Below are positions 10,324 through 16,399 of a stretch of DNA of 64,000 bases, piece after piece. The stretch spans positions 434,001-498,000 of the forward strand of contig NZ_QVID01000001.1 in assembly GCF_003413745.1 (NCBI RefSeq), read 5' to 3'. Within the stretch, counting starts at the first letter, position 1. The number at the start of each line of letters is the position of its first letter. The stretch comes from Marixanthomonas ophiurae. Its GTDB lineage: Bacteria > Bacteroidota > Bacteroidia > Flavobacteriales > Flavobacteriaceae. The translations under genes were made by a program, and so were the position numbers. The notes under the pieces were generated by a model. The model was not told where the DNA came from and made no database searches. It saw only the letters and a list, made by a program, of their open reading frames with translations.

Positions 10324-11184
10324 ATGAGCAGAAAAGACAATAGCGGAAAAGGAAAACCTTCTGGGCGTGGTGCCGGAAACACCCGAAAAGGAAGCAATGC
10401 ACGAGGAAATGCTCCTTTAAGTAGAAAAAAACCTACCACGAAAAAACAAGACAAGAGTGGAAATACCAACCACCAAGAAAACCCGAATGGAATTCGGTTA
10501 AATAAATACATTGCTAACAGCGGTATTTGCTCTCGTAGAGAAGCGGACACTTACATTAAAACGGGTTTGGTATCGGTAAATGGAAACATTATAAACGAAA
10601 TGGGCTATAAAGTTCAGTTAGCCGACGATGTTCGTTTCGATGGTCGTCGTATTAATCCAGAGCCAGACACCTATGTTTTATTGAACAAACCAAAGTCTGT
10701 TGCCACAACTACCAGTGAAAGCAAAGGATTAACCGTAATGGATTTAATCTCGAATGCAACTACTGCCGATGTAAAACCGATAGGCCGTTTGGGTAGAAAT
10801 GCAACCGGATTATTGTTGTTCACCAACGATGATAAGCTAGTTAAAAAGTTGCATAGCAAAGGGATGCCTCGTCTGTTTCATATTGAATTAGACAAAAACC
10901 TTAAAGCTTCCGATCTTCAGAAAATAGAAGAAGGTTTAAAAATTAACGGTAAAACAGTTGAAGTAGAAGAAATTAGCTACGTAGACAATTCGCCTAAAAA
11001 AGAAATTGGTCTGAAAATCAAAAATATGGGAAACAGTATTATCCGTGATATTTTTGATCATTTAGACTACGATGTGGTGAAAGTAGACTGTGTAACCATT
11101 GCACATCTTACTAAAAAAGACTTACCAAGAGGCCGTTGGAAAATATTGACCAAAAGAGAAGTAGAGCTTTTTAGCATGATGTAA
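10324..11184 (+). CDS. RsuA/RluB-type pseudouridine synthase with Gly at the catalytic Asp position
   Basis: 286 residues. A basic, disordered N-terminus (1-55) is followed by an S4 RNA-binding domain (about 57-110; IRLNKYIANSGICSRREADT) and the RsuA/RluB/C/D/E/F catalytic domain. The family uses the Asp of the GRLDxxTxGLLLxTxD motif to form pseudouridine in 16S or 23S rRNA. Here the motif reads PIGRLGRNATGLLLFTND, with Gly157 where the nucleophilic Asp should be; the codon at this site is clearly GGT. The rest of the fold looks intact, so it may bind rRNA without modifying it, or have a changed function. It has its own promoter at 10224-10253 and terminator at 11208-11236. Confidence 0.88.
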   Translation: MSRKDNSGKGKPSGRGAGNTRKGSNARGNAPLSRKKPTTKKQDKSGNTNHQENPNGIRLNKYIANSGICSRREADTYIKTGLVSVNGNIINEMGYKVQLADDVRFDGRRINPEPDTYVLLNKPKSVATTTSESKGLTVMDLISNATTADVKPIGRLGRNATGLLLFTNDDKLVKKLHSKGMPRLFHIELDKNLKASDLQKIEEGLKINGKTVEVEEISYVDNSPKKEIGLKIKNMGNSIIRDIFDHLDYDVVKVDCVTIAHLTKKDLPRGRWKILTKREVELFSMM

Positions 11185-11207
11185 TACTTTACTGATATTC
11201 AAACTAG

Positions 11208-11236
11208 AACACCTCTTTTTACAGGGGTGTTTTTTT
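11208..11236 (+). terminator. Intrinsic terminator after the pseudouridine synthase gene
   Basis: AACACCTC (11208-11215) pairs with GGGGTGTT (11224-11231; one T-G pair), followed by a T-run to 11236. It isolates the next operon, so the polyamine genes must use their own promoter. Confidence 0.9.
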
Positions 11237-11281
11237 ATGCTAAATTTTTACTGAAATGATTTTCTATATCAAAAAATAAAG

Positions 11282-11289
11282 TACATTTG
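11282..11289 (+). promoter_or_regulatory. Probable -7 promoter element of the polyamine operon
   Basis: TACATTTG fits TAnnTTTG. It lies just after the preceding terminator and 282 nt before the arginine decarboxylase ATG, implying a long untranslated leader starting near 11296. The -33 element is not well matched. Confidence 0.55.
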
Positions 11290-11295
11290 CTGCGC

Positions 11296-11547
11296 ATTTA
11301 GCTGAACAAATTGAACCGTGTTTCTGTGTTCGGGTTTTTGAAGATTAGGAAGTCATATTCAAAAACAGGTTGCCAGGCAACCAGCCGAAATTTAAAGCTA
11401 GCTTCCGCCTTACCCTTAGAACCTGTAGAAGGTTTCTCACAACGTTTAGCCTACTGGCTCAACCCTATCCGTATTTGAAAATACCGTTAATTTTTTGTTA
11501 TTTCTCTCAATTTTCTGAGGGTATCAACTAATTGATTTATAATTTTC
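11296..11547 (+). promoter_or_regulatory. Structured 5' leader RNA of the arginine decarboxylase operon (candidate riboswitch/attenuator)
   Basis: About 250 nt between the promoter and the decarboxylase gene, unusually long here. Pairings seen by eye: a closing helix 11305-11310/11494-11499 (AACAAA/TTTGTT); 11334-11342/11358-11366 (9 bp); 11365-11371/11420-11426 (ACAGGTT/AACCTGT), which competes with the local palindrome GGTTGCCAGGCAACC at 11368-11382; hairpin 11444-11463 (GTT..AGCC/GGCT..AAC); and an AT hairpin 11471-11484 followed by T6 at 11491-11496, a possible weak terminator whose T-run also takes part in the closing helix. A last hairpin is 11504-11521. It does not contain the core sequences of the TPP, cobalamin, SAM, FMN, lysine, glycine or guanidine riboswitches as I know them. 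Ligand unknown; arginine, agmatine or polyamines would make sense. Confidence 0.55.
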
Positions 11548-11574
11548 ATGTCTAACCGTTACTTTTTAAAATGA
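11548..11574 (+). other. Eight-codon upstream ORF overlapping the arginine decarboxylase start
   Basis: ATG at 11548 opens a mini-ORF MSNRYFLK ending at TGA 11572-11574, so its stop overlaps the decarboxylase ATG (11571-11573) in the arrangement AAATGA. It could couple or regulate initiation. It has one Arg and one Lys codon. It could equally be chance, since eight codons are too few for coding statistics. Confidence 0.35.
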
Positions 11575-12971
11575 ATACTAAATATATTGATCTCATTGAT
11601 CAAACCTATTATTTTCCGCAGGAAGAGTTTGCTTTAAACGAAAACAAAACCTTAACTTTTCACGATATCGACTTAATGGATCTCGTTTCAAAATACGGGG
11701 CACCTTTAAAGTTTACCTATCTTCCTAAAATTTCAAAAAACATACAACGCGCCAAAAAATGGTTTGGCAATGCGATTGAAAAGCATAATTATCAAGGCAA
11801 TTATAACTATTGCTATTGCACGAAAAGCTCTCACTTTAAACACGTGTTACACGAAGCGTTAAAAAACGATATTCATATTGAAACCTCATCGGCATTCGAT
11901 ATTAATATTGTTGAAAACTTAAAAGCGGAAGGAAAAATCAATAACAACACCTATGTAATTTGCAACGGTTTTAAGCGGGAACAATACGTTAACAACATTG
12001 CGCGATTAATTAATGAAGGACATAAAAACTGCATTCCTGTAATTGATAATTATGAGGAAATTGGGTTACTTTCCGAACAAATTGAAGGCAATTATAAAGT
12101 AGGAATTAGAATCGCTTCGGAAGAAGAGCCTAAGTTTGAATTTTACACCTCTCGCTTGGGGATTGGGTATAAAAATATTGTTCCTTTTTACGAAAAACAA
12201 ATTAAGGACAACAAACAGGTTGAGCTTAAAATGCTTCACTTTTTCATTAACACCGGTATTCGCGACAACGCCTATTACTGGAACGAATTGGTAAAGTGTT
12301 TAAACGTGTACACCAAACTGAAAAAGGTTTGTCCTTCACTGGATAGCTTAAACATTGGCGGTGGGTTTCCTATAAAAAATTCATTGGCTTTCGAGTATGA
12401 CTATCAGTATATGATCGATGAAATCATCAACCAAATAAATATCACCTGCGCAGAAGCCGATGTGCCTGTGCCTAGTATATTTACGGAATTTGGTAGCTTT
12501 ACAGTAGGTGAAAGCGGTGGAGCCATTTATGAGATTTTATACCAAAAACAACAAAACGATCGCGAAAAGTGGAATATGATTAATTCTTCTTTTATTACAA
12601 CCTTACCCGATACCTGGGCGATTAGTAAACGTTTCATTATGCTAGCAATCAATCGTTGGAATGATGAATACGAACGCATCTTATTAGGAGGGTTAACCTG
12701 CGATAGTGACGATTATTACAACAGCGAACAGCATATGAACGCTATTTATTTGCCTAAATTTAAAAAAGAAAAACCGTTGTATATCGGCTTTTTTAACACG
12801 GGAGCTTATCAAGAAAGCATTGGCGGATTTGGTGGATTACAACACTGTTTAATCCCTTCACCAAAACATATTTTAATTGACAAAGACGATGATGGAAACA
12901 TCACGACCAAATTATTTTCACAACAACAAACAAGCGAGCAATTGCTAAACATTTTAGGTTATGAGCACTAA
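11571..12971 (+). CDS. speA: Arginine decarboxylase (PLP fold III)
   Basis: 466 residues. It decarboxylates arginine to agmatine in the cytoplasm, the first step toward putrescine. It belongs to the alanine-racemase-fold (type III) PLP decarboxylases: the Schiff-base lysine is probably Lys85 in YNYCYCTKSSHF, the phosphate-binding loop is NIGGGFP (261-267), and GLTCDSDDYYN carries the conserved Cys377/Asp378 of the active site. It is shorter than the roughly 630-residue E. coli SpeA and of the form usual in Bacteroidota. Its 3' end overlaps the agmatinase gene by 11 nt, which confirms the pathway. Expression is probably governed by the long leader and the mini-ORF overlapping the start. Confidence 0.9.
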   Translation: MNTKYIDLIDQTYYFPQEEFALNENKTLTFHDIDLMDLVSKYGAPLKFTYLPKISKNIQRAKKWFGNAIEKHNYQGNYNYCYCTKSSHFKHVLHEALKNDIHIETSSAFDINIVENLKAEGKINNNTYVICNGFKREQYVNNIARLINEGHKNCIPVIDNYEEIGLLSEQIEGNYKVGIRIASEEEPKFEFYTSRLGIGYKNIVPFYEKQIKDNKQVELKMLHFFINTGIRDNAYYWNELVKCLNVYTKLKKVCPSLDSLNIGGGFPIKNSLAFEYDYQYMIDEIINQINITCAEADVPVPSIFTEFGSFTVGESGGAIYEILYQKQQNDREKWNMINSSFITTLPDTWAISKRFIMLAINRWNDEYERILLGGLTCDSDDYYNSEQHMNAIYLPKFKKEKPLYIGFFNTGAYQESIGGFGGLQHCLIPSPKHILIDKDDDGNITTKLFSQQQTSEQLLNILGYEH

Positions 12972-13896
12972 AACGTATGCCGGAATCCCGCAAAAATATG
13001 CGGCTCTGGAAACTTCAAAAATTGTATTAATTCCTGTTCCTTACGATGGCACCAGTACGTGGCAAAAAGGAGCCGATAAAGGTCCAGGAGCTTTTTTACA
13101 CGCTTCAGAAAACATGGAATTGTACGATATTGAAACCGAAACCGAAGTTTACAAACAAGGAATCTATTTAAGCGAACCCATTACTGAAAATGCTTCACCG
13201 GAAGCGATGGTAGAAGCGGTTCACAAAAAAACAAAAGATTATATTCTTCGGAATAAGTTTGTAACTGTTTTTGGTGGTGAGCACAGTATTTCAATCGGTA
13301 CAATCCGTGCATTTAATGAATGTTTTGACGATTTAACCGTGCTTCATATCGATGCCCATGCAGACCTTCGGAAAGAGTATGAAGGTTCTACTTGCAACCA
13401 TGCTTGTGCGGTTTACGAAGCCAGCCAAATGACTAATTTAGTACAACTAGGCATTCGTAGTATGGATGTTGCCGAAACAACCGTAATGGACCGTGAAAAA
13501 ACATGGTTTGCACACGAAATGGCAACCGATGAGTATTGGATGGACAATGTAATTGAAGCGCTGGGTGAAAACGTATTTATTACGTTCGATTTGGATGCAT
13601 TTGATCCTTCTATCCTACCCTCAACGGGAACCCCAGAACCAGGTGGGTTGTTTTTCTATGAAACCATGGAGTTTTTAAAACAAGTTTTTGCTGAACGCAA
13701 TGTGGTTGGATTTGATATTGTAGAATTATGCCCAAATCCAGCAGAGAAATCATCTGACTTTTTAGCGGCTAAATTGTATTACAAAATGCTTAGCTACAAG
13801 TTTGAAGGTACAGAAGGAGAAGATGACTATGAAAGCAATTTCACAGACTCAAAAAAAGGAATTTCAAAATTTAACGACAACGAAGATGAGGACTAA
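12961..13896 (+). CDS. speB: Agmatinase (ureohydrolase family)
   Basis: 311 residues. It hydrolyses agmatine to putrescine and urea with a binuclear Mn centre. The metal ligands are visible in GGEHS (105-109), DAHAD (131-135) and FDLDAFDPS (209-217, Asp210 and Asp212). The length is normal for SpeB. The start lies 11 nt inside the end of the arginine decarboxylase gene, and its own end overlaps the following deoxyhypusine-synthase-like gene by 11 nt, so the three are translationally linked. The C-terminal 25 residues are acidic (ending NEDED) and extend beyond the catalytic core. Confidence 0.92.
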   Translation: MSTKTYAGIPQKYAALETSKIVLIPVPYDGTSTWQKGADKGPGAFLHASENMELYDIETETEVYKQGIYLSEPITENASPEAMVEAVHKKTKDYILRNKFVTVFGGEHSISIGTIRAFNECFDDLTVLHIDAHADLRKEYEGSTCNHACAVYEASQMTNLVQLGIRSMDVAETTVMDREKTWFAHEMATDEYWMDNVIEALGENVFITFDLDAFDPSILPSTGTPEPGGLFFYETMEFLKQVFAERNVVGFDIVELCPNPAEKSSDFLAAKLYYKMLSYKFEGTEGEDDYESNFTDSKKGISKFNDNEDED

Positions 13897-14863
13897 TAAA
13901 GGAGCGATTTCAGAATTTATTCAAAAATATTATTTGCACTTCAACGCTGCCGCTTTGGTAGATGCTGCAAAAGGATACGAAGACCAATTGAACAAAGGTT
14001 CAAAAATGTTAGTGTCCTTAGCTGGAGCTATGAGTACTGCGGAATTAGGTAAAATATTTGCTGAAATGATCCGTCAGGATAAAGTGCATATCATTTCGTG
14101 TACGGGTGCAAACTTGGAAGAAGATATTATGAATTTAGTGGCGCACAGCCACTATAAACGAGTTCCTAATTATCGTGATTTAACCCCAAAAAATGAATGG
14201 GATTTATTAGAAAAAGGACTGAACCGAGTAACAGATACGTGCATTCCAGAAGAAGAAGCATTCAGAAGAATTCAAGAACATATTGTAAAAATATGGAAGG
14301 AAGCAGAAGCCAATGGCGAACGCTATTTACCGCACGAATATATGTACAAATTGCTTTTAAGTGGTGTGTTAGAAGAACATTACGAAATCGATTTAAAAGA
14401 TTCTTGGATGTATGCTGCGGCAGAAAAAAACCTTCCTATTGTTTGTCCAGGTTGGGAAGACAGTACGATGGGTAATATTTTTGCTAGCTATGTTTTAAAA
14501 GGCGAGCTAAAAGCCTCAACCATGAAAAGTGGAATTGAGTATATGACCTTCTTGGCTGATTGGTACACCGATAATTCAGAAAAAGGAATTGGTTTCTTCC
14601 AAATTGGTGGTGGAATTGCTGGTGATTTCCCTATTTGTGTCGTACCGATGTTGTATCAAGATATGGAACGTACCGACACGCCTTTTTGGAGTTATTTTTG
14701 TCAAATTTCAGACTCAACAACGAGCTACGGAAGCTATTCGGGAGCAGTCCCAAACGAAAAAATCACGTGGGGTAAATTGGACATTGATACACCAAAATTC
14801 ATTATAGAAAGTGACGCTACCATCGTCGCCCCTTTAATTTTCGCATATCTCTTAGATATGTAA
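13886..14863 (+). CDS. Deoxyhypusine synthase-family protein
   Basis: 325 residues from the ATG at 13886; the frame is open further upstream, but that start leaves only an 11-nt overlap with agmatinase and begins MRTNKGAISEF as expected. The fold is that of NAD-dependent deoxyhypusine synthase. The C-terminal EKITWGKLDI keeps the lysine (about 297) that forms the imine with the aminobutyl group, and GGGIAGDF and YGSYSGAVP match the NAD/spermidine region. Bacteria lack eIF5A, so the substrate must differ. Related enzymes transfer an aminobutyl group to putrescine to give homospermidine, or act on other amines. Being downstream of genes that make putrescine suggests a polyamine substrate. Exact reaction unknown. 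Confidence 0.85.
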   Translation: MRTNKGAISEFIQKYYLHFNAAALVDAAKGYEDQLNKGSKMLVSLAGAMSTAELGKIFAEMIRQDKVHIISCTGANLEEDIMNLVAHSHYKRVPNYRDLTPKNEWDLLEKGLNRVTDTCIPEEEAFRRIQEHIVKIWKEAEANGERYLPHEYMYKLLLSGVLEEHYEIDLKDSWMYAAAEKNLPIVCPGWEDSTMGNIFASYVLKGELKASTMKSGIEYMTFLADWYTDNSEKGIGFFQIGGGIAGDFPICVVPMLYQDMERTDTPFWSYFCQISDSTTSYGSYSGAVPNEKITWGKLDIDTPKFIIESDATIVAPLIFAYLLDM

Positions 14864-14866
14864 CCC

Positions 14867-16399
14867 ATGGAAAACAAAATAGAAAATATAGAATTAAAAT
14901 TCTTAACGCTTAAAGATTACGAAGCGTTAAAAAAAGCAACCCTTCAGTCATATGGAGGGTTGCCAAATTCTTATTGGAAAATTGAAGAGATTGGTAATTT
15001 AATTTCTTTGTTTCCAGAAGGTCAAGTGGTCATTATGGCCGATGGCGAAATTGCAGGTTGTGCCCTATCGATTATTGTAGACTATGATAAAATTGAAGAC
15101 AATCATACCTATGATGATATAACGCGCGACCCGTCGTTTAAAATCCACGATCCCAACGGTGATGTGCTCTACGGAATTGACGTGTTTATACATCCCGATT
15201 ACCGCGGACTTCGATTAGGTCGCAGACTCTACGATTATCGAAAAGAATTGTGTGAAAACTTAAACCTGAAAAGTATCGTATTCGGGGGAAGAATGCCTAA
15301 CTACCATAAACATGCCGACACTATTTCACCAAAAAAATACTTAGAGAAAGTACGAAGCAAAGAAATTGAAGATCCTGTATTGAACTTTCAGTTATCAAAC
15401 GATTTTCACCCGCTTCGTGTTTTAAAAGGATATTTAGAAGGCGATGCCGCTTCGGGCGAATATGCCGTTTTAATGGAATGGGACAATATTTACTACACCA
15501 AACCAGATAAAAAACCAAGTGCTACCAAAAGTATCGTTCGTTTAGGACTTATTCAATGGCAAATGCGTTCGTATAACGGCATAGAAGATTTAATGCAGCA
15601 AGTTGAATATTTTATTGACAGTGTTGCAGGATACCGAAGTGATTTCGCTGTGTTCCCCGAATTTTTCAATGCGCCGCTTATGGCTGAATACAACCATATG
15701 AGCGAACCAGAAGCGATACGCGAACTGGCAACGCACACTGCTGAAATTACCGAGCGATTGTCTAAACTTTCTATTTCATACAACATTAATATTATCTCCG
15801 GAAGTATGCCGGAAGTAGTAGATGACAAACTGTACAATGTTGGCTATTTATGCCGCCGTGACGGAAGTGTAGAGCGGTATGAAAAATTACACGTAACCCC
15901 AGATGAAGCAAAAGTTTGGGGCATGCAACAAGGAAATACGCTTAAAACGTTTGATACCGATTGCGGAAAAGTAGGAATATTAATTTGTTACGATTCTGAA
16001 TTTCCTGAGCTTTCCAGACTTTTATCTGATGAAGGAATGGACATTCTGTTTATACCATTTTTAACAGACACACAAAACGGATATTCTAGAGTTCGGTTGT
16101 GTGCACAAGCTCGTGCCATTGAAAACGAATGCTATGTCGCCATTGCTGGCAGTGTGGGTAACTTACCGAAAGTACATAATATGGACATTCAATATGCACA
16201 ATCGGCTGTGTTTACACCTTGCGATTTTGCTTTTCCTAACAACGGTGTTAAAGCAGAAACCACCCCAAATACTGAGATGATTTTGGTAGCCGATGTTGAT
16301 TTAGATTTGTTACGGGAATTACACACCTTTGGCGCTGTAAGGAATTTAAAAGACAGACGAAAAGATTTTTATAATTTAGGACGGGTAAAGAAAATATAG
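14867..16399 (+). CDS. GNAT acetyltransferase - carbon-nitrogen hydrolase (nitrilase) fusion
   Basis: 510 residues, two domains. Residues about 8-205 are a GNAT N-acetyltransferase with the acetyl-CoA loop RGLRLGRRLY (113-122). Residues about 223-505 are a nitrilase-superfamily amidase with the Glu-Lys-Cys triad visible: Glu265 (VFPEFF), Lys340 (YEKLHV) and Cys374 (LICYDSEFPE). It starts 3 nt after the deoxyhypusine-synthase-like stop and closes the polyamine operon. N-carbamoylputrescine amidase is a nitrilase, but agmatinase here makes putrescine directly, so a different acyl- or amide-polyamine substrate is likely. One domain adding and the other removing a group from the same amine is conceivable. 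Function not proven. Confidence 0.88.
   Translation: MENKIENIELKFLTLKDYEALKKATLQSYGGLPNSYWKIEEIGNLISLFPEGQVVIMADGEIAGCALSIIVDYDKIEDNHTYDDITRDPSFKIHDPNGDVLYGIDVFIHPDYRGLRLGRRLYDYRKELCENLNLKSIVFGGRMPNYHKHADTISPKKYLEKVRSKEIEDPVLNFQLSNDFHPLRVLKGYLEGDAASGEYAVLMEWDNIYYTKPDKKPSATKSIVRLGLIQWQMRSYNGIEDLMQQVEYFIDSVAGYRSDFAVFPEFFNAPLMAEYNHMSEPEAIRELATHTAEITERLSKLSISYNINIISGSMPEVVDDKLYNVGYLCRRDGSVERYEKLHVTPDEAKVWGMQQGNTLKTFDTDCGKVGILICYDSEFPELSRLLSDEGMDILFIPFLTDTQNGYSRVRLCAQARAIENECYVAIAGSVGNLPKVHNMDIQYAQSAVFTPCDFAFPNNGVKAETTPNTEMILVADVDLDLLRELHTFGAVRNLKDRRKDFYNLGRVKKI

Follow-up and report, generated by a model that had tools for sequence, protein, structure and literature searches.

A pseudoknotted RNA around the start of a short leader ORF upstream of flavobacterial speA: a candidate two-part cis-regulatory element

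Gene arrangement at the speA locus

The DNA analyzed here (64,000 nt, in the following called the window) is part of a 3.3 Mb genome, and the closest named relatives of its speA gene belong to the Flavobacteriaceae. All features described below lie on the plus strand. A row of four genes begins with an arginine decarboxylase gene of the speA type (11571–12971), whose family matches stay under the curated NCBIfam cut-offs (163 bits vs. 369 and 152 vs. 624). It is followed by an agmatinase gene above its NCBIfam cut-off (12961–13896), a deoxyhypusine-synthase-like (DHS-like) gene (13910–14863) and a gene for a GNAT-CN hydrolase fusion (14867–16399). Upstream of the leader lies a pseudouridine synthase gene with its end at 11184.

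The sequence TACATTTG at 11282–11289 corresponds to the flavobacterial −7 box. Given the spacing of 4–5 nt from this box to the start reported in PMC6847099, the transcript is expected to start at about 11294 (11293–11295), that is, at the 5′ end of the RNA element described below. The relaxed box TWnnTTTG occurs in 164 of 183 distinct upstream stretches compared to 31.7 after shuffling, with a positional peak 20–24 nt 5′ of the leader start codon, and the strict form TAnnTTTG in 57 of 183 compared to 13.9. From the expected start to the speA ATG at 11571 the transcript would extend over about 277 nt. The first-pass annotation, made from the window sequence, had described an untranslated leader of about 270 nt; the length holds, but 168 nt of it belong to an open reading frame (ORF; 11311–11478).

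A conserved RNA with five helices and a pseudoknot

Searches with speA homologs gave 80 named loci, 78 of them with usable upstream DNA (L032 and L103 had none and were dropped). We aligned 61 leaders, those of the window and of 60 of the 78 usable loci (alignment A1; 60 distinct rows were counted). The fold was drawn by inspection (helices P1, PA, P2 and P3) and with RNAalifold, which on the core yielded only P4 and the strands of a pseudoknot, and was then counted on a sequence-only alignment. Covariation and cmsearch delineate a structured core of ~110 nt (11298–11406).

The outermost helix P1 (11299–11303/11396–11400) is paired in 86.3% of the alignment cells with double changes in two of five pairs, and its G-C pair is broken in 14 of the 60 distinct rows. 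PA (GAACA/TGTTT, 11304–11308/11319–11323) encloses the leader start codon in its loop. It is 91.9% paired and the least supported helix, with double changes in one of five pairs (C-G to U-A or A-U, nine cells). P2 (TTCGG/CCGAA, 11329–11333/11385–11389) is 96.0% paired, with double changes in two of five pairs. The two hairpins that follow had already been noticed in the window, and both bear up in the alignment: P3, 9 bp long (11334–11366; strands 11334–11342/11358–11366), shows double changes in all nine pairs, and P4 (11368–11382; strands 11368–11373/11377–11382), paired in 82.7% of cells, in all six. The P3 loop is conserved (GATTAGGAAGTCATA) and contains the 5′ strand of the pseudoknot, GGAAGT (11348–11353). 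The 3′ strand at 11401–11406 reads GCTTCC in the window and ACTTCC in most leaders. The pseudoknot, found by RNAalifold and supported by covariation, is 94.4% paired in A1 with double changes in five of six pairs, and 95.7% paired in 101 further rows.

For the whole fold, 90.2% of 2155 cells are paired in A1, compared to 83.8% in shuffled alignments and at most 51.7% when the fold is slid along the alignment. Double changes affect 25 of 36 pairs (shuffled mean 14.9, slid 15–21), and the covariation score of 0.294 exceeds both the shuffled value (0.187, sd 0.006; none of 500 shuffles reaches it) and that of slid folds (≤0.121). Because A1 had guided the structure, we repeated the count on the 101 further rows, all less than 92% identical to the A1 rows and among themselves. 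Again 90.2% of cells were paired, compared to 30.9–51.9% for slid folds, and 280 double changes were counted, compared to 89.7 on average and 116 at most after shuffling. Slid folds gave 140–233 double changes in these rows; they are scored against the unslid reference pair and thus are no clean control, which leaves the pairing percentage as the valid comparison for these rows. Covariation is accordingly strong in A1, and the pairing recurs in the additional sequences, so that an absence of covarying pairs, which the first-pass annotation had named as a refuting result, is excluded.

The folding energy of the window sequence itself is unexceptional (z-score −0.65 for the core, −1.03 for 276 nt), and the case for the RNA therefore rests on comparison. 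The window fold also suggests a helix CTGAAC/GTTCGG that is incompatible with P1 and P2; by eye, it is lost in the Muricauda and Arenibacter groups. As for the helices listed in the first-pass annotation, all five elements are present, while P1 and the pseudoknot were missing from it. Its pairing ACAGGTT/AACCTGT, a hairpin at 11444–11463 and an AT-rich hairpin at ~11471–11484 can all be found in the sequence. The first of these is lost by eye outside close relatives, and the pairing suggested between the T-run and the 5′ end is absent from both the minimum free energy (MFE) and the centroid structure of the window.

No Rfam 15 family reached its gathering threshold within the window. The best match in a permissive scan of 11200–11600 scored 19.9 bits (cut-off 47) and lay outside the core, and one within the core scored 15.7 bits (cut-off 48); two tRNAs were the only hits in 12 further loci. 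These scans agree with the earlier impression that no known riboswitch core is present. Together, the comparisons support a conserved, putatively cis-regulatory RNA upstream of speA that has no Rfam family. With a covarying, conserved fold in cis to a single pathway it resembles riboswitches, ligand binding being putative. A covariance model of the core (R1) matched the window at 11293–11412 with 129.5 bits, the next best match reaching 14.1 bits; this score is not independent, as the window sequence is part of the R1 alignment.

A leader ORF starts inside the RNA

The leader ORF (11311–11478) has 55 codons, a TTG start and a TGA stop (LNRVSVFGFLKIRKSYSKTGCQATSRNLKLASALPLEPVEGFSQRLAYWLNPIRI) and ends 92 nt before speA. 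In most leaders it comprises 55–60 codons, with a median of 77 nt from its stop to speA. Among 62 named leaders, the start column reads TTG in 37, ATG in 18 and GTG in four; in two more it is NTG after a one-base gap shift, and there is one exception (L048, which was not alignable and was excluded from A1 and the dN/dS analysis). The first base is T, A or G. That it is never C rests on this 62-leader column, since the search of the genome set took NTG starts only. This search found an NTG-start ORF in place in 147 of 148 extracted RNA copies, or 145 of 146 distinct sequences (one duplicate, L141 and L147; L204 and L207 identical across two genomes), with TTG in 90, ATG in 46 and GTG in 11; L145 is the RNA copy without a leader ORF. 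The preference for TTG in the leader, compared to the tblastn-inferred starts of speA (ATG in 124 of 141, TTG in 17), suggests that the leader start may be deliberately weak.

Codon-level selection is unevenly distributed along the ORF. For residues 2–31 of the 61 leaders, the in-frame dN/dS was 0.85, compared to 0.89 and 0.76 in the two alternative frames, and for residues 32–55 it was 0.60 compared to 1.09 and 1.14. In a set of 178 distinct leaders, the values for codons 2–11 were 1.11 in frame vs. 0.73 and 0.79, and for codons 12–31 0.76 vs. 0.77 and 0.80. The values for the 178-leader set come from pairs with 60–97% identity, and related sequences are counted as independent throughout. Codons 2–31 thus show little or no frame-specific selection. 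Constraint acts mainly on the RNA in the 5′ half and on the protein at the 3′ end. This division is not absolute, because leaders with proline at position −9 from the stop (see below) show a weak in-frame signal in codons 12–31 (0.67 vs. 0.77 and 0.97).

The ORF might instead encode a small functional protein, with the RNA helices as a by-product. A conserved frame of 55–60 amino acids whose start and end are fixed in most leaders would fit this, but selection on codons 2–31 is scarcely frame-specific, the compensatory pairs include a pseudoknot, and the window ORF has no Pfam match. We consider this reading, already disfavored by these results, very improbable.

The C-terminal tail is selected as protein and mostly ends at UGA

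The last 12 codons and the UGA stop of the window ORF (QRLAYWLNPIRI, 11440–11478) carry the signature of protein-level selection. Across 171 distinct sequences, dN/dS of the last 12 codons was 0.36 in frame vs. 1.48 and 1.90 out of frame, and it was 0.16 in the 26 sequences with proline at position −4. Tail, stop and hairpin counts refer to 178 distinct leaders out of 192, excluding leaders with a stop outside 20–250 nt of speA, those without speA and those missed at the first extraction. Proline occupies position −9 in 126 of the 178 (FVPTTxxQIxI and relatives) and position −4 in 26 (LNPIRI as in the window; LLPIIV). The commonest tail reads F-V/I-P-T-T-x-x-Q-I-x-I/V-stop and that of the window clade A-Y-W-L-N-P-I-R-I-stop. 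Tails differ from clade to clade, with a last residue of I or V in 170 of 178 and I, F or L at position −3 in 171. Two leaders from two genomes of one genus (L203, L209) have tails without the usual motif, the one of L209 being rich in cysteine codons (…YCLAHPKNCCC).

The stop codon is TGA in 153 of the 178 leaders (86%), TAA in 16 and TAG in nine. In the fetched loci, TGA closes seven of 191 speA frames, one of 115 agmatinase frames, three of 109 DHS-like frames and none of the 61 frames for pseudouridine synthase; for frames of at least 250 codons the count is 31 of 615. Related sequences are treated as independent in this comparison. The bias holds in each tail class (112 of 125, 20 of 26 and 21 of 27), being lowest in an SQHDYFF sub-class (15 of 26). 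It is suggestive of stalling at the stop codon, and the selection on the C-terminal residues up to the stop places the leader among candidate arrest peptides of the TnaC/SpeFL kind, with putative stalling. Because the ORF overlooked before has 12 selected last codons and this UGA bias, the mechanism we propose shifts toward a translated leader.

The interval between the leader ORF and speA

Between the leader stop and speA, hairpins followed by a U-run (≤ −4 kcal) occur in 5.6% of the 178 leaders, compared to 3.9% of shuffled sequences. An intrinsic attenuator was therefore rejected for lack of terminator enrichment in these intervals, and the ligand-controlled attenuator layout inferred before loses its terminator. 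The T6 run assigned to its switching hairpin lies in the window inside an element TTAA-n6-GTTA (11487–11500), which recurs in 31 of 178 intervals compared to 1.5 after shuffling. A related palindrome, TTAAC-n5-GTTAA, was found in 19 of 178 intervals compared to 0.15, mostly in one group. Both repeats are possible protein binding sites.

Two other routes from the leader to speA were likewise rejected. Internal promoters, scored for the TAnnTTTG type only, were found between leader and speA in two of 178 cases, compared to 13.45 after shuffling, and read-through or frameshifting past the leader stop would find 15, 17 and 26 of 178 leaders open in the three frames.

Within the ORF, the tail codons can form local hairpins. 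In the window these are GAACCT-GTAGA-AGGTTT (11419–11435), part of the MFE structure of the leader, and GTTTAGCC-TACT-GGCTCAAC (11444–11463) in the codons for R-L-A-Y-W-L-N, which has counterparts in L033, L036 and L037. Across the family, the best tail hairpins average −6.47 kcal/mol compared to −3.95 kcal/mol for synonymous resampling. They are enriched in the class with proline at −9, where some leaders have overlapping hairpins, and less clearly in the class with proline at −4, to which the window belongs; the hairpin potential of the window tail itself is no higher than in synonymous versions (rank 40 of 60). Clade alignments of tail and interval (four groups, 40 of 178 leaders) showed local hairpins and no shared switch.

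A classical amino-acid attenuator, in which pausing at arginine codons selects a terminator or an antiterminator, would likewise show a leader ORF and tail hairpins. In the class with proline at −9, hairpin loops centered 45–54 and 25–29 nt upstream of the last base of the stop codon are more frequent than in one synonymous resampling, and arginine occupies position −2 in 62 of 178 leaders. Against this stand another residue at −2 in the other 116, the absence of a run of arginine codons from the window ORF, the weak coding signal of codons 2–31 and the unenriched intrinsic terminators, which together make such an attenuator improbable.

Distribution and separable modules

In a DNA search of 60 genomes including the own one, all six congeners proved to have the leader, with 89–99% identity over 268–294 nt, and 12 further genera its first ~110 nt, whole or in part. 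A lack of conservation outside this genome, the other refuting result named in the first-pass annotation, is thereby excluded. With model R1, the RNA was detected in 149 of 299 Flavobacteriaceae genomes and in 141 of 249 genomes of good quality, in a search with stricter filters that may lose weak matches. In the class, two of 198 genomes matched, namely the own genome and one with an E-value of 0.095 beside a tRNA-like sequence (by eye); this match was taken as chance, and an occurrence beyond the family was rejected. speA lies downstream of 142 of the 148 extracted copies at a median distance of 144 nt. In one of these (L182) the distance is 1,388 nt and two other ORFs intervene.

RNA and tail can be found separately. 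No good match to R1 came from the 18 named loci that lack the leader (best E-value 0.41). Three loci without an RNA match (L039, L040 and L047, two from Aequorivita) nevertheless have 29-codon ORFs ending LPIRI, LPIHI or LPIRM. The tail of L048 is LLPLIV and that of L061 FPVTGQTIMI. Conversely, six rows of A1 (L044, L049, L060, L062, L070 and L072) have kept the tail with an RNA that is degenerate by eye. Neither module was found by the criteria used at 13 of the 78 usable speA loci, and the device is thus dispensable; among the genera concerned are Christiangramia, Gramella, Salegentibacter, Leeuwenhoekiella, Mesonia and Psychroflexus. In the first three of these genera, leaderless speA genes (L075–L077, L081, L089, L099) have in common a different conserved upstream stretch beginning with CTTAACATTAATTTACCA.

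The remaining six of the 148 copies (L144, L145, the second copy of L147, L199, L216 and L256) lie before genes of one small-protein family of ~100 residues, secreted-looking, with the motif DGYEDGTYYFTD and without a Pfam match in the two members scanned; in L199, L216 and L256 this frame is short or contains stops. The family occurs in 90 of 299 Flavobacteriaceae genomes, often within a few kb of the RNA on the same contig, and downstream of speA in 11 of 79 named loci scanned. In the genome of the window it had no match at E ≤ 0.001.

That only two types of genes follow the copies examined, and that the P3 loop and single-stranded bases are conserved, could point to a protein-binding RNA through which an operon product regulates its own synthesis, the ORF being the translated target. 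A candidate protein is missing, however, the genome of the window yields no match to the small-protein family at this E-value limit, and we regard this explanation as quite improbable.

In a plain riboswitch, the RNA would bind a metabolite of the polyamine pathway and control speA directly, with the ORF either incidental or serving translational coupling. The pseudoknotted fold, the conserved loops, the position near the expected transcript start and the association with one pathway all suit this idea, as does L145, which matches the RNA model before a small-protein gene without having a leader ORF. But the in-frame selection on the last 12 codons, the nearly invariant NTG ORF, the UGA bias, the tails that occur without the RNA and an interval between core and speA that offers no terminator platform speak against it, and on this evidence we hold a plain riboswitch to be unlikely.

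A two-part model and its relation to known systems

Built on the comparison of fold, ORF, tail selection, UGA bias, gene association and unenriched terminators, the explanation that we favor, and consider somewhat probable, is a two-part cis-regulatory leader of speA, in which a pseudoknotted RNA gates a uORF with an arrest-like tail. The ~110-nt RNA, beginning at the expected transcript start, would hold the start codon of the ORF in a helix loop. As this codon is enclosed, the folded state of the RNA and ribosome initiation are expected to be mutually exclusive. The fold would thereby set how often the ORF is translated, probably tuned by a metabolite of the polyamine pathway. The first ~30 codons would mainly serve the RNA fold and the last ~12 encode the conserved tail, which in its nascent state may slow or arrest the ribosome at UGA according to the metabolite level. 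Ribosome occupancy could then alter the folding of the tail mRNA or the access of Rho, and with it speA expression. What we infer is the arrest, its ligand, the direction in which speA is regulated and the last step, be it Rho or translation. A bolder version is a composite sensor new to Bacteroidota, in which a polyamine or arginine aptamer surrounds the start of a UGA-arrest ORF, giving two sensors in series, and the RNA is reused for a second gene near speA; we put this forward tentatively, as a possibility that is clearly less probable than the general model.

Among the literature matches found, the nearest printed architecture appears to be the odc1 (uORF-25-1) motif of alpha-proteobacteria (PMC8632094), which shares a pseudoknotted RNA and a conserved UUG-start uORF before a decarboxylase committing to polyamines, and for which control of translation initiation is proposed (PMC8632094). 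As described there, odc1 differs in having one hairpin and a pseudoknot, a uORF of 11 amino acids that begins where the RNA ends, a spacing of two nucleotides to the main UUG and an ornithine decarboxylase as target (PMC8632094). The speA leader, in contrast, has five helices and a pseudoknot, and its uORF of 55–60 codons starts inside the RNA and ends in a UGA-biased tail. The uORF and architecture of odc1 are not found in the window; the two are set apart by description, Rfam being the collection scanned.

A leader ORF upstream of a polyamine-making decarboxylase is likewise known from speF of Salmonella and E. coli (orf34/SpeFL), where its translation is reported to work via Rho and mRNA folding (PMC6386406, PMC8429421). 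SpeFL itself is an arrest peptide that senses L-ornithine and acts during termination; going by the description given there, it inhibits RF1 (PMC8429421), whereas the stop of the speA leader is mostly UGA. It also belongs to a different enzyme and phylum. To our knowledge, no enclosing pseudoknotted RNA exists at SpeFL. TnaC, a tryptophan sensor of 24 residues, arrests at UGA and blocks RF2 (PMC8429421). Both TnaC and the speA leader have a C-terminal peptide up to UGA, with a presumed arrest in the latter, and termination-stage arrest involving RF2 is a model that we borrow from TnaC. The spermidine riboswitch, a SAM-I aptamer variant acting by transcription termination (PMC10853860), is alike in the RNA control of polyamine synthesis genes, but the speA leader is unlike it in matching no Rfam family and in its unenriched terminators.

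Control of polyamine genes by RNA or leader peptides has thus been described for Proteobacteria (speF/orf34, odc1) and rare SAM-I variants in the sources cited (PMC6386406, PMC8632094, PMC10853860). Among the matches listed for open-licence PMC articles, an arginine decarboxylase leader of such a kind in Bacteroidota was not found. A transcriptome study of F. psychrophilum (PMC9723704) reports structured 5′ regions at other genes, its main text being without mention of speA or arginine decarboxylase. The pseudoknotted RNA that in many Flavobacteriaceae surrounds the beginning of this short ORF is apparently undescribed.

The element unites a pseudoknotted RNA and a leader peptide under selection within a single stretch of DNA and is present in half of the sampled Flavobacteriaceae genomes. 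With the NTG start column and the bias for UGA as precise handles, initiation, arrest and ligand would be separable with few point mutations.

Within the speA operon, the gene at 14867–16399 is a fusion of GNAT acetyltransferase and carbon-nitrogen hydrolase; its product could be involved in an acyl-polyamine or carbamoylputrescine step.
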